DNA of 64,000 nucleotides from an uncultured Selenomonadales bacterium (GTDB taxonomy: Bacteria > Bacillota > Negativicutes > Selenomonadales > Selenomonadaceae). Numbering within the stretch: position 1 is the stretch's first letter; each line of letters begins with the position of its first letter. Positions 4,084 to 29,238 of this stretch are shown here, one piece after another. The stretch covers positions 62,001 through 126,000 of the forward strand of contig OMYB01000004.1 in NCBI GenBank assembly GCA_900315155.1, written 5' to 3'. The position numbers and the translations under genes are program-made. Below the pieces are notes generated by a model. That model was not told the DNA's origin. It worked only from the letters and a program-made list of their open reading frames with translations, and made no database searches.

Positions 4084-4187
4084 TATAAAGGCAAGAGATA
4101 GCAGCTATCCCTGCTGTTTTATCGCTACTTAGATCTTTGATTACTGACAGCAAAGAACGTTACGAAAAGAAAGTTGCCGTCGCGATT

Positions 4188-4214
4188 TAAGTGACGGTAA
4201 TTTTTTTCCGATAG
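4188..4214 (+). promoter_or_regulatory. Candidate sigma-28 (FliA/SigD) flagellin promoter
   Basis: TAAG at 4188-4191, 16 bp, then CCGATAG at 4208-4214. This resembles the sigma-D/sigma-28 consensus (TAAA, 15-16 bp, GCCGATAT). It lies about 105 bp upstream of the flagellin start, and flagellin genes are typical members of this regulon. No strong sigma-A promoter is seen closer to the gene. Confidence 0.5.
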
Positions 4215-4320: not shown

Positions 4321-5673
4321 ATGGCAATGGTGGTCAAGAATAATATACCGGCAAAGAATACACTGAATCTGCTGAATCGCAACGATAAGGCTCTGGCGAA
4401 GGACCTCGAAAAGGTCTCCTCCGGCATGCGCATCAACAGCGCAGCCGACGATGCATCGGGGTATGCCATCTCCGACAAGATGGACGTGCAGATCAAATCG
4501 CTCGATCAGGATAAGGACAACACGCAGAACGGGCAGAGTATCCTGAAGACGGCATCCGGCGCCCTTCAGTCGACCGTGGATATCCTGCGCACGCTGAAAG
4601 AGCGCGCCATCAACGCGGCCAATGACTCGAATACGGACGTGGACCGCGCCACCCTCCAGAAAGAACTCGATCAGGCCATCGACCAGATCGACGAGAACGC
4701 GAACGTGGAGTTCAACGGCATGACCATGCTCGACGGTTCGAGAAACCATTATGTACAGCCGGGCGGCACGGCTAATGTCGTGTCCAATACGAACTTTTCC
4801 ATCTTTCAGGGATTTGATATCAATACACCGTTGGATCAATTGAAGGATAAGAGCGGAATGACGCTGTCGATCCAACCTACGGATCAAATCGAGGTTTCCT
4901 ACTTCAAAGATGGTAAGTTCATCGATCAGACTTTCTCTGCTTATAATCCGAGTTATGGTGGATCCATTGTTTCACTTAATGATACCCTTGCCAGGGATCC
5001 GATGAACAAGGATTTTTCTCTTATATTCCGGCCTAGCGATCCCACCTATGTAGGCGAGGATAGTTATGGTCAGCCCGTGCATATCGAGGGCGTGGAAATG
5101 GCAGTCAGCATTCAGGCTATAGATCCGGGCCTTGAAAATCAGGTTAGTGGGTTCAACTACTGCATCAAAGATGCGAAAGGTAATCCACGTACGGATCTCA
5201 ATAAGATTTTTAACGATTTTAATGAAAGTGTTCCGGCAGAGAATCAGTCTTCGGACAATGTTTTCCATTTTCAGATTGGTACGAAATCCAATCAGACGAT
5301 CAACATTGGGTTTGCGGATATGCGTGCGCAGGCTCTCGGCCTGAAAACGGGCTCTCCGGCACAGAACATCAGCGTCGCTACGCGGGAACAGGCCAATGCC
5401 GCCATTCAGGCACTGGATACGGCTCTCCAAAAGGTGCTGGATCAGCAGACGACCCTTGGAGCGGTGACCAGCCGCCTGGACTTCACAGCGGACAACATCA
5501 CGACGGGCTCGGAGAATACGCAGTCGGCGATGTCCGTCATCCGCGATGCCGATATGGCCAAGGAAATGACAGCCTACACGAAGGACAATATCCTCGCACA
5601 GGCTTCGCAGGCGATGCTCGCACAGGCCAACCAGAACAGCAGCAGCGTTCTGAGCCTGCTGCAGGGACAGTAA
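4321..5673 (+). CDS. fliC: Flagellin
   Basis: A 450-aa flagellin, the filament subunit exported by the flagellar type III system. The conserved N-terminal D0/D1 part (residues about 5-140, with the LEKVSSGMRINSAADDASG signature) and the C-terminal part (residues about 365-450, ending in SSSVLSLLQGQ) are both intact. The roughly 220-residue centre is variable and more AT-rich. There is no signal peptide, as expected. The ATG is preceded by AGGGAGG. No other flagellar gene is in the window, so this is an isolated filament gene, either the main flagellin located away from the flagellar cluster or an additional copy. The symbol is by family only. Confidence 0.93.
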   Translation: MAMVVKNNIPAKNTLNLLNRNDKALAKDLEKVSSGMRINSAADDASGYAISDKMDVQIKSLDQDKDNTQNGQSILKTASGALQSTVDILRTLKERAINAANDSNTDVDRATLQKELDQAIDQIDENANVEFNGMTMLDGSRNHYVQPGGTANVVSNTNFSIFQGFDINTPLDQLKDKSGMTLSIQPTDQIEVSYFKDGKFIDQTFSAYNPSYGGSIVSLNDTLARDPMNKDFSLIFRPSDPTYVGEDSYGQPVHIEGVEMAVSIQAIDPGLENQVSGFNYCIKDAKGNPRTDLNKIFNDFNESVPAENQSSDNVFHFQIGTKSNQTINIGFADMRAQALGLKTGSPAQNISVATREQANAAIQALDTALQKVLDQQTTLGAVTSRLDFTADNITTGSENTQSAMSVIRDADMAKEMTAYTKDNILAQASQAMLAQANQNSSSVLSLLQGQ

Positions 5674-20146: not shown

Positions 20147-20221
20147 GCGGAAATAGCTCAGTGGTAGAGCACCACCTTGCCAAGGTGGGGGTCGCGAGTT
20201 CGAATCTCGTTTTCCGCTCCA
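20147..20221 (+). tRNA. tRNA-Gly(GCC), copy 1
   Basis: A full cloverleaf: acceptor GCGGAAA/TTTCCGC, anticodon loop TTGCCAA (anticodon GCC at 20179-20181), T-loop TTCGAAT, encoded CCA. It is first in a five-tRNA cluster and almost identical to the next gene. Confidence 0.96.
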
Positions 20222-20225
20222 TGAT

Positions 20226-20300
20226 GCGGAAATAGCTCAGTGGTAGAGCACCACCTTGCCAAGGTGGGGGTCGCGAGTCCGAATCTCGTTTTCCGCTCCA
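20226..20300 (+). tRNA. tRNA-Gly(GCC), copy 2 with variant T-loop
   Basis: A tandem copy of the preceding tRNA, 4 nt downstream. The only difference I see is at 20279, where the T-loop reads TCCGAAT instead of TTCGAAT. This replaces the near-universal U55 (pseudouridine site) by C. All stems are intact and CCA is encoded. It may be a mildly defective copy. Confidence 0.9.
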
Positions 20301-20311
20301 TTTTTTTTGCA

Positions 20312-20332
20312 ATAAAACCAGTTTGGTTTTAT
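20312..20332 (+). other. Hairpin between tRNA-Gly and tRNA(CAT)
   Basis: ATAAAACCA pairs with TGGTTTTAT around a 3-nt loop, directly after a T-run. It could be a processing or partial termination signal inside the tRNA transcript. It has no clear T-tract downstream, so I do not call it a terminator. Confidence 0.4.
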
Positions 20333-20338
20333 ATACAT

Positions 20339-20415
20339 GGGCCTATAGCTCAGTTGGTTAGAGCAACCGGCTCATAACCGGTCGGTCCTTGGTTCGAGTC
20401 CAAGTGGGCCCACCA
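20339..20415 (+). tRNA. tRNA with CAT anticodon (Met elongator or Ile2)
   Basis: 77 nt; acceptor GGGCCTA/TGGGCCC, anticodon loop CTCATAA inside an ACCGG/CCGGT stem, T-loop TTCGAGT, encoded CCA. The anticodon CAT fits elongator Met or, after lysidine modification, Ile2. The GGCTCATAACC anticodon arm resembles Ile2 tRNAs of Firmicutes, but sequence inspection alone does not settle it. It is not an initiator: the first acceptor pair is a normal G-C. Confidence 0.92.
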
Positions 20416-20447
20416 ATTATAATTGCATATTCCATACTACTTGATAT

Positions 20448-20525
20448 GGCCCAGTAGCTCAGTTGGATTAGAGTATTTGACTACGAATCAAAGGGTCGAG
20501 GGTTCGAGTCCCCCCTGGGTCACCA
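20448..20525 (+). tRNA. tRNA-Arg(ACG), copy 1
   Basis: 78 nt; acceptor GGCCCAG/CTGGGTC, anticodon loop CTACGAA (anticodon ACG), T-loop TTCGAGT, encoded CCA. An identical gene lies at 22925-23002. The A34 is expected to be edited to inosine. Confidence 0.95.
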
Positions 20526-20530
20526 TATAT

Positions 20531-20616
20531 GGGTAGGTGCCCGAGTGGTTAAAGGGAACAGACTGTAAATCTGTCATCTTCGGATTACGATGGTTCGAAT
20601 CCATCCCTGCCCACCA
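20531..20616 (+). tRNA. tRNA-Tyr(GTA)
   Basis: 86 nt with the long variable arm of class II tRNAs; acceptor GGGTAGG/CCTGCCC, anticodon loop CTGTAAA (GTA), T-loop TTCGAAT, encoded CCA. It is last in the cluster, followed by a terminator. Confidence 0.95.
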
Positions 20617-27856: not shown

Positions 27857-27885
27857 TTGACAAATATACAAGCTTCGGTTAAAAT
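27857..27885 (+). promoter_or_regulatory. Promoter of structured leader / 76-aa gene
   Basis: TTGACA at 27857-27862, 17-bp spacer, TAAAAT at 27880-27885, predicted start near 27892. It is unusually strong for a transcript whose first recognisable start codon is about 240 nt away. Confidence 0.75.
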
Positions 27886-27891
27886 AGAAGC

Positions 27892-28134
27892 AGATAAGGG
27901 AAATGGATCAAAAGATCCGATGGTTACACAGTTACTTAGGGAAACACATTATCCGCTTCATTGTGGCGATACTTCATCGTTACACGTCAGTTTCATGGAA
28001 TCTCCGTGGATCTGCTTAGCATCAATGTGTGGTAACTCTCGACCAGCATGGGGATGCGATAGGATCAGCAGGCATGCGCTGTGGATGGCTCATAAACATC
28101 GCTGATTTAACGCAGAAACAAGGAGTGATTCACC
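27892..28134 (+). ncRNA. Candidate structured 5' leader RNA
   Basis: About 243 nt between a strong promoter and the 76-aa ORF, with nested complementarities. GGATC-AAAA-GATCC (27905-27918) forms a hairpin. GTTAC (27923-27927) pairs with GTAAC (28032-28036) and encloses ACACATT/AATGTGT (27944-27950 with 28024-28030). Inside that are hairpins CGAT/ATCG (about 27967-27979) and CATGG/CCGTG (about 27994-28008). Downstream, GCAT-GGGG-ATGC (28046-28057) and GCGAT/ATCGC (28056-28060 with 28098-28102) follow. I do not recognise a known riboswitch or 6S consensus. It could be a cis-regulator or an independent RNA. Confidence 0.5.
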
Positions 28135-28365
28135 ATGAAGATGAAAATTGATTCTCAATGGATGGAGAATGTATATATTCCCGTCCGCGTAGGACAGCTT
28201 ACGAAGGCTGCGAAACTCGCTGGCAAGAAGAATTTTGCTAGTTACGCCGACGACACGGTCGACCTCCGCACGCCGACCCGCAAGGTAGACGAGCGACAGG
28301 CAGTAGCCGATTGGCTCGATAGCCGTGAAAAACGTGAAGTGGCTGTCAAAACTGAGATCGCCTGA
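28135..28365 (+). CDS. Small 76-aa hypothetical protein
   Basis: Not recognised. It is a soluble, mixed-charge protein (MKMKIDSQWMENVYIPVRVG start), with a helical KAAKLAGKK segment and an RTPTRKVDERQ stretch, ending in a Lys/Glu-rich tail. No Cys, signal peptide or membrane segment. The ATG follows AAGGAGTG at good spacing, and the gene is bracketed by a strong promoter with a long structured leader and a strong terminator, so it is very likely a real expressed gene. The leader suggests post-transcriptional control. Confidence 0.68.
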   Translation: MKMKIDSQWMENVYIPVRVGQLTKAAKLAGKKNFASYADDTVDLRTPTRKVDERQAVADWLDSREKREVAVKTEIA

Positions 28366-28462
28366 CACGTGTTTAATGATGAAATTATTGCATAAAGGGC
28401 ATTGCGCCGAGCCTGGAGAAAGGTTTGGATCATAAAAGCAATTCATAAGCAATGTCCCATAC

Positions 28463-28497
28463 AAAAAGGGCCCTTGCATCCACAAGGGGCCTTTTTT
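28463..28497 (+). terminator. Terminator after 76-aa gene
   Basis: AAAAAGGGCCCTTG pairs with CAAGGGGCCTTTTTT around a short loop. A-runs and T-runs on both flanks mean it may also serve the convergent gene ending at 28552. Confidence 0.85.
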
Positions 28498-28551: not shown

Positions 28552-29136
28552 TTAGTGCTTTTTGGCCGCCGGCATGCCCGGCAGCGGCGTGATTTCGAGC
28601 GGGACGGTCTGTACGGCTATGGCGTTTTTCCGCATGAGGGTGTCGTTCGGATATTTCGCATAGATGCCCTGCAGGCGGCGCATGTACGCGGCGGGCTCCA
28701 ACGGGTCAGCCTGGCGGGCGGCAACATGGCGGCGGATCGCCTCGATGAACGGCGCATCGAGGACGATATCGCGCTGCGCACAGAGCAGCTGCAGCGTGCT
28801 GTCGACGAGGTAGAGGTGGAGACAGGGGTCGGCGAGGCTTTTTTCCGTCGGGCGGTGTTCCGGCTTCAGCGTATGCAGGGCGAGCGGTGCATCCCCCCAG
28901 CCCTCCTTGAAGATGCCATCAATCTGGTAGAGCAGGAAGAGCAGGCCGTCCTCCTCACAGAGCGCGAACTCCATCTTTCCCGTGCGGAACGCCTCCGTGG
29001 CGATGACATCGAGCCTGGCGAGCTGCAGGATGAAGAGCAGGCCATTGGCGTCTGCCTGAAACAGGCCGCCCTGGCCCTGTGCCTGGATCGGCAGAGGGAA
29101 TTTCTCCCCGACGACGAAATTGAGATAATCGGACAT
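28552..29136 (-). CDS. Uncharacterised 194-aa cytoplasmic protein
   Basis: Not recognised. It starts MSDYLNFVVGEKFPLP after AAAGGAG on the minus strand; the much longer reading frame beyond 29136 overlaps hydF antisense and is rejected. The sequence has alternating hydrophobic strands and helices, no signal peptide or membrane span, and a Lys-rich end (PAAKKH). It is divergent from hydF, with under 105 bp between the two starts, and an extended -10 (TGCTAGAAT) lies upstream. The conserved neighbourhood with hydF might hint at a link to hydrogenase maturation, but nothing in the protein shows it. Confidence 0.7.
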   Translation of the reverse strand: MSDYLNFVVGEKFPLPIQAQGQGGLFQADANGLLFILQLARLDVIATEAFRTGKMEFALCEEDGLLFLLYQIDGIFKEGWGDAPLALHTLKPEHRPTEKSLADPCLHLYLVDSTLQLLCAQRDIVLDAPFIEAIRRHVAARQADPLEPAAYMRRLQGIYAKYPNDTLMRKNAIAVQTVPLEITPLPGMPAAKKH

Positions 29137-29238
29137 AGCGGTATGACTCCTTTGCTGCTGGTTTATGCGGTCGTATGTCCTTATTCTAGCATATTTCGGG
29201 TCGATTGTGTTATACTGGTAGGCAGGAGAGTGATCAAG

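Follow-up and report, generated by a model that had tools for sequence, protein, structure and literature searches.

Leaders that are recognized by CsrA-type proteins are the closest described systems for the element reported here. Passages of PMC7652899 give the SELEX consensus of CsrA as RUACARGGAUGU, which is mostly presented in hexaloops, report that RsmE contacts an ANGGAN loop, and name the hag, glgC, psl, and ymdA leaders as cases in which CsrA-type sites mediate repression as well as activation. According to parts of the same source, RsmA stabilizes a mask of the Shine-Dalgarno (SD) sequence in psl, while CsrA opens such a mask in ymdA. For the flaA leader of Campylobacter jejuni, two GGA hexaloops are described in a part of PMC4894983, and this leader also titrates CsrA.

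The leader that is compared with these systems here is located in a stretch of 64,000 nucleotides (the window) of a 2.49 Mb Selenomonadaceae genome. A sigma-70/A-type promoter on the plus strand, TTGACA-N17-TAAAAT (27857–27885), matches 11 of the 12 consensus bases, and the transcript start predicted from the promoter spacing opens a 5′ leader of about 242 nt (27893–28134, plus strand). The leader includes the SD sequence AGGAG (28121–28125) within AACAAGGAG (28117–28125) and is followed on the same strand by an open reading frame for a 76-aa protein (28135–28365). An intrinsic-terminator-like hairpin with a T run (28471–28497, plus strand) lies after the gene, and the predicted transcript is probably monocistronic, about 0.6 kb long, and ends at this hairpin. 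By eye and in single folds of three sequences (the window and its two same-genus homologues L018 and L019), the 3′-UTR (28366–28470) contains a genus-conserved stretch, GATGAAATYATTGCATAAA, and then a GCATTGC...GCAATGC hairpin. The gene left of the leader presumably resembles histidinol-phosphatase-type genes, and the right-hand neighbor of the 76-aa gene is convergent (28552–29137, minus strand); by eye, the end of the latter is similar to convergent neighbors of the homologue in a number of loci of genus g16. A cluster of five tRNA genes is located about 7.5 kb upstream of the 76-aa gene (20147–20613), and a five-tRNA cluster was also seen downstream of the homologue in L049 (1493–1960).

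Of 189 Selenomonadaceae genomes, 48 encode homologues of the 76-aa protein, at 53 places and in 10 of the 30 genera. A class-wide search yielded 49 positive genomes among 380, all of them Selenomonadaceae except G114, whose match (E 5e-4, internal stops) is probably spurious. Comparison with the two same-genus homologues revealed 9/9/23 and 9/11/34 differences at the three codon positions. The open reading frame is therefore real, because homologues exist in the family and because the differences are piled up at codon position 3. A Pfam search with the window's protein gave no match even at E 10, and an NCBIfam search gave none at E 1. The alignment of 34 members, which has 13 invariant columns, had only scattered matches in family databases, none of them significant; weak PHROG matches (best E 0.0019) and a PDB match (E 0.02) were likewise judged not significant. 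A significant match to RNA-binding families was not detected, and no relatives were found in a scan of viral contigs. AlphaFold models were of low confidence (mean pLDDT 55 alone and 61 with one homologue), and the isoelectric points of the homologues range from 4.8 to 10.4, i.e., they are not consistently basic. The 76-aa protein is outside every known protein family. Genera g4, g27, and g2 also have shorter paralogues of the gene (L063 and L066–L070), and their leaders are short.

Usable leaders were available for 51 of the 53 places, five from short-leader paralogues and 46 from long-leader copies. All 46 long-leader copies have a sigma-70-type promoter, with 11 (31 cases) or 12 (15 cases) of 12 consensus bases, compared with 16 hits in 1840 shuffled upstream regions. 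The distance from the promoter to the start codon, and thus the leader length, is 190–291 nt. Because the promoter is present in every long-leader copy, promoter and long leader form a conserved arrangement. An earlier note on this DNA had proposed a strong promoter, a leader of about 240 nt, and an orphan open reading frame for 76 amino acids, and all three proposals were borne out.

The stems that the same note had listed fared differently. The distal ones among them lie in the 5′ half of the leader (27893–28010), which is genus-specific and poorly conserved. The fold of the whole window leader is of unexceptional stability (z -1.43; 17 of 200 shuffles were equally good). In a comparison of the three same-genus leaders, the GTTAC/GTAAC stem was broken in both relatives, with two of five pairs left in each. 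The ACACATT/AATGTGT stem had six of seven pairs and one compensatory change in L018, and three of seven pairs in L019. Neither the 5′ hairpin nor CATGGA/TCCGTG was conserved in the two same-genus leaders. Of the proposed nested set, the ACACATT/AATGTGT pairing was thus mostly kept in L018, while the enclosing stem and the two distal hairpins were not conserved. The listed stems mostly failed when leaders were checked for covariation, whereas downstream elements (about 28011–28125) co-vary: the conserved structure consists of the last 110–145 nt or so before the start codon and not of the distal stems.

A MAFFT alignment of the leaders across genera was unreliable in the stems, and therefore fixed-register tests, swap tests, and a covariance model were used. 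The comparisons show a leader fold of three elements that is conserved in Selenomonadaceae and predicted from the sequences. The closing helix P1, UCUGC (28011–28015)/GCAGA (28112–28116), is located directly upstream of the ribosome-binding site, which its 3′ strand overlaps or abuts. All five pairs are intact in the three same-genus leaders, with compensatory change at two of them. P2 is the first hairpin, GCAUGGGGAUGC (28046–28057), and has a purine loop. P3 comprises an outer helix, AUCAGC (28064–28069)/GCUGAU (28101–28106), and an apical hairpin, GC-U[GUGGAU]G-GC (28078–28089), with a GNGGAN hexaloop at 28081–28086; the inner stem of the window's P3 has just two pairs and a U-G closing pair. 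Across the genera P3 lies 43–78 nt before the start codon, and its GNGGAN motif is present in 47 of 51 leaders. It is absent from the three g11 leaders and from the paralogue L063; four of the five short-leader paralogues analyzed (L066, L067, L068, L070) kept the motif. By eye, an alternative hairpin, GAUGG/CCAUC, overlaps P3 in several genera, though not in all. The idea that the -10 sequence pairs with the region of the start codon was dropped, because start contexts of the GATTATCATG type also precede unrelated genes.

GGA hexaloop hairpins occur 43 times in the 51 leaders, compared with 3.3 in shuffles. In fixed register, the P3 flanks of 39 distinct sequences were paired in 118 of 156 cells, versus 56–81 when slid by 1–3 bases, and the pairs at positions -1, -2, and -3 outperformed shuffles (6, 0, and 0 of 2000 as good) with several pair types. 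When the outer P3 flanks were swapped across genera, the energy changed from -16.1 (own flanks) to -10.7 kcal/mol (45 sequences); 19 of the 45 sequences ranked in the best 5%, and g27 gave no support. For P1 the values were -13.0 (own) and -8.7 kcal/mol (swapped) for 41 sequences. Support for P1 came from g16 (n=18, median fraction 0.022), g17 (n=2, 0.013), and g2 (n=1, 0.000), and was weaker in g28 (n=1, 0.062) and g25 (n=6, 0.107). Energy support for P1 was absent in g1, g3, g4, and g27, with medians of 0.53, 0.64, and 0.50 for g1, g3, and g27; despite this, all three g27 leaders have a complement of seven bases for P1.

Structures of single genera had 93–98% of their cells paired, versus 21–48% when slid; double changes were few, because the sequences within genera are close. 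A first covariance model was built from nine g16 leaders. It recovered the remaining eleven leaders of g16, and a further nine, from g17, g27, g3, g25, g1, g4, and g28, were correctly located at E <= 0.6. The resulting model-fitted alignment of 29 leaders was paired in 92.6% of the cells (79.5% shuffled, 35–45% slid) and contained 78 double-change cells (16.1 shuffled, 10–24 slid) affecting 21 of 28 pairs; these figures lean toward structure, because the alignment is structure-fitted and 20 of its 29 rows come from one genus. Of the 17 main leaders on which a second, wider model had not been trained, this model found 15 at E <= 0.05 and missed L058 and L065. It scored the window leader at E 0.0018 and 24.1 bits, a score that derives in part from the common ribosome-binding-site context. 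Matches of about 19–32 bits, the window's included, overlap the range of false matches (up to 29 bits), and the main grounds for the membership of the window leader are therefore the P3 motif and the alignment within its genus rather than this score.

The earlier note had left open whether the leader is a new cis-regulatory RNA or a free RNA with the small open reading frame at its 3′ end, and had assigned it to no recognized regulatory RNA class. In agreement with the latter, no Rfam family matched the leader above its gathering score. Searched over the 189 genomes, the first model produced 19 matches at E <= 1e-3, all single copies that end at the start of the 76-aa gene, and the 31 matches of the second model at E <= 2e-4 end there as well. 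Nine weaker matches of the second model are not leader copies, and none of them has the 76-aa gene. In seven of them the match ends with an AAGGAG-type ribosome-binding site that precedes a different gene, and no clear open reading frame follows the other two (L132, L138). A copy of the leader away from the gene was confirmed neither among the strong matches nor among these nine, and the leader is thus a cis-acting mRNA leader and not a free RNA. The free-RNA alternative is also disfavored by the lack of a terminator-like site on the plus strand between promoter and open reading frame. Taken together, a co-varying structure at the start of one gene family, without a match in Rfam, supports the first alternative: the leader is a real conserved cis-regulatory element that is absent from Rfam and probably sets the level of the 76-aa protein. 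It is not described in the open-access literature on Selenomonas and Negativicutes, as judged from titles and abstract openings.

A second promoter signal was found inside many of the leaders. The sigma-28 motif TTAAG-N15-18-CGATA is present in 31 of the 46 long leaders, 109–163 nt before the start codon, compared with 73 of 4600 shuffles. The motif occurs in g16 (19/20), g3 (6/6), g27 (3/3), g28 (1/1), g4 (1/1), and g2 (1/1), and was not found in g1 (0/3), g17 (0/2), g25 (0/6), or g11 (0/3); the window's own genus is among those without it (0/3). Per-leader scores alone were mostly non-significant against shuffles; significance was reached with the motif pattern when its spacing was constrained. 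A scan of five genomes with the pattern gave 16 matches (four for the reversed control), of which three are at flagellin genes (two being tandem sites of one gene) and one is at the 76-aa gene. The same sigma-28-type element is present upstream of flagellin genes of Selenomonadaceae. The window contains a flagellin gene (4321–5673) with a sigma-28-type promoter (4187–4213), which is the only match to the pattern on either strand of the window; a GGA hexaloop hairpin was not found in the 150 nt upstream of this gene. The internal motif would link the small gene to the flagellar program in six of the ten genera. The distance from the CGATA element to the 5′ strand of P1 is about 1–9 bases in g16, g27, g28, and parts of g25. 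Sigma-28 transcripts usually start about 7 bases after the -10 element, and by these two distances most of the 5′ strand of P1 would be missing from an RNA that starts there.

It is proposed that the leader acts in cis as a translational control element via a GGA-recognizing protein, most likely CsrA, and the chances that this is correct, like those of CsrA as the mechanism, are about even. The protein would bind the P3 loop, and also P2 where its loop has a GGA, and would bridge to or stabilize the masked ribosome-binding region, so that translation would be held down, with the hag, flaA, glgC, and psl leaders as precedents. In six genera the sigma-28 promoter inside the leader might produce a shorter RNA whose 5′ end falls at the masking strand of P1 or shortly behind it, and motility-phase transcripts should therefore lack the mask. 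The window's genus would combine the strong housekeeping promoter with the RNA switch, without a sigma-28 promoter.

Several findings fit CsrA. A csrA gene is present in 167 of the 189 genomes, and the genome of the window (G000) has FliA, FliW, and flagellins as well as two matches to csrA. Two csrA matches per genome were seen throughout G000–G002 and in most g16 genomes, while most of the family has one. The P3 motif of 47 of the 51 leaders places a GGA in the loop of a hairpin that precedes the SD sequence, as in CsrA leaders. Genus g11, the only long-leader group without this motif, lacks csrA and FliW (0/3 each) and has only weak FliA matches in genomes that are 99–100% complete; the joint loss of csrA, fliW, and the motif may be one evolutionary event, as it concerns one genus. 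The first loop position differs from the ANGGAN form: 41 of the 43 hexaloop hairpins begin with G, including GUGGAU in the window. GGA hexaloops were found in 10 of 13 flagellin-type genes of Selenomonadaceae, and all ten begin with A. In five flagellin genes they lie 53–58 nt before the ATG, and most P3 hairpins are at similar distances. Strong ANGGAN hexaloop hairpins of 7–8 bp were seen at this distance in the flagellin leaders L112, L113, L116, L120, and L099/L103 and are likely canonical CsrA sites. A candidate for a second site overlapping the SD sequence is AACAAGGAG, but the AAGGAGNGAT context also precedes unrelated genes. The likeness of the SD region to the CsrA consensus was dropped as evidence, because unrelated genes, too, are preceded by the context AAGGAGNGATTATCATG. 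The P3 motif is retained in two g2 genomes that gave no csrA or FliW match, at a completeness of only 76–79%. Because of the G at the first loop position and the g2 loop without a csrA match, the leader is described as possibly working like a CsrA leader and is not classed as a proven one.

The main rival to control by CsrA is self-regulation, in which the 76-aa protein would bind to its own mRNA at the GNGGAN hexaloop and repress its own translation. Self-repression of translation is common among small RNA-binding proteins. The tie of the element to one gene family, its retention by four of the five short-leader paralogues, and the departure of the loop from the canonical CsrA loop speak for this possibility. 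However, g11 retained the protein and lost the loop motif together with csrA, the proteins are not consistently basic, and they match no RNA-binding family significantly, so that self-regulation is regarded as unlikely. A combined reading is doubtful, if worth keeping in mind: the choice of sigma factor would set translatability, and the GNGGAN loop would be read by a protein other than a canonical CsrA, possibly the orphan protein itself. With the masking strand in the sigma-28 initiation region, the flagellar transcript would be born without the mask, and the long housekeeping transcript would be masked. If this were true, the orphan protein as loop reader would define a novel family of RNA-binding proteins that is linked to the flagellar program.

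It is also conceivable, at rather low probability, that the strongly transcribed leader has a second function in trans and titrates CsrA, for which the part of PMC4894983 on the flaA leader offers a precedent. The near-consensus promoter is present everywhere and many leaders have several GGA sites, but gene-free copies were not confirmed in the model searches, a terminator-like site before the open reading frame was not found, and a loop that departs from the canonical form may titrate CsrA poorly. Titration would be compatible with control by CsrA, which remains the best explanation, and the two do not exclude each other. A metabolite or ion riboswitch might be suspected from a closing helix and two hairpins in a 5′-UTR beside the ribosome-binding site; it is very improbable, as no Rfam family matches and, by eye, unpaired positions other than the hexaloop, the ribosome-binding site, and the promoter are little conserved between genera. 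That the conservation reflects only two promoters and a ribosome-binding site, with the RNA folds as a by-product, would suit a conserved block that is partly sigma-28 promoter and generic ribosome-binding site, but is already disfavored and hardly credible given the compensatory changes in P3, P2, and P1 and the persistence of P3 in genera without the sigma-28 motif (g1, g17, g25).

The element adds to the known RNAs a structured leader with clear covariation that is missing from Rfam. Should the promoter indeed lie inside the mask, a single gene would illustrate how a switch of sigma factors could switch translation without a separate regulator; a paper on such two-promoter masking was not found in the open-access literature, and among open-access titles and abstract openings neither CsrA targets nor flagellin promoters of Selenomonadaceae appeared as a subject of study.

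Like hag of Bacillus subtilis, flaA of C. jejuni, and glgC of Escherichia coli, the leader has a hairpin that precedes the ribosome-binding site and contains GGA in its loop, and as in those systems CsrA, FliW, and FliA are present in the species. It differs from them in its GNGGAN instead of ANGGAN loop, in its gene, which encodes an orphan small protein and not a flagellin, and in an extra predicted long-range helix that reaches the ribosome-binding site. With psl of Pseudomonas aeruginosa and ymdA of E. coli, as they appear in passages of PMC7652899, it shares the combination of an SD-masking pairing with CsrA/RsmA-type sites, which are putative in the present leader; unlike these, it has the masking strand beside a sigma-28 promoter in six genera. 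The covariance model of the leader had no significant match at 18 flagellin or sigma-28 search loci. The flagellin genes of Selenomonadaceae resemble the small gene in the upstream sigma-28 motif CTTAAG-N-CGATA and, in five cases, in a GGA hexaloop. The flagellin loops begin with A and those of these leaders with G, and this difference between GNGGAN and ANGGAN within one family makes loop recognition a sharply defined question that can be tested.
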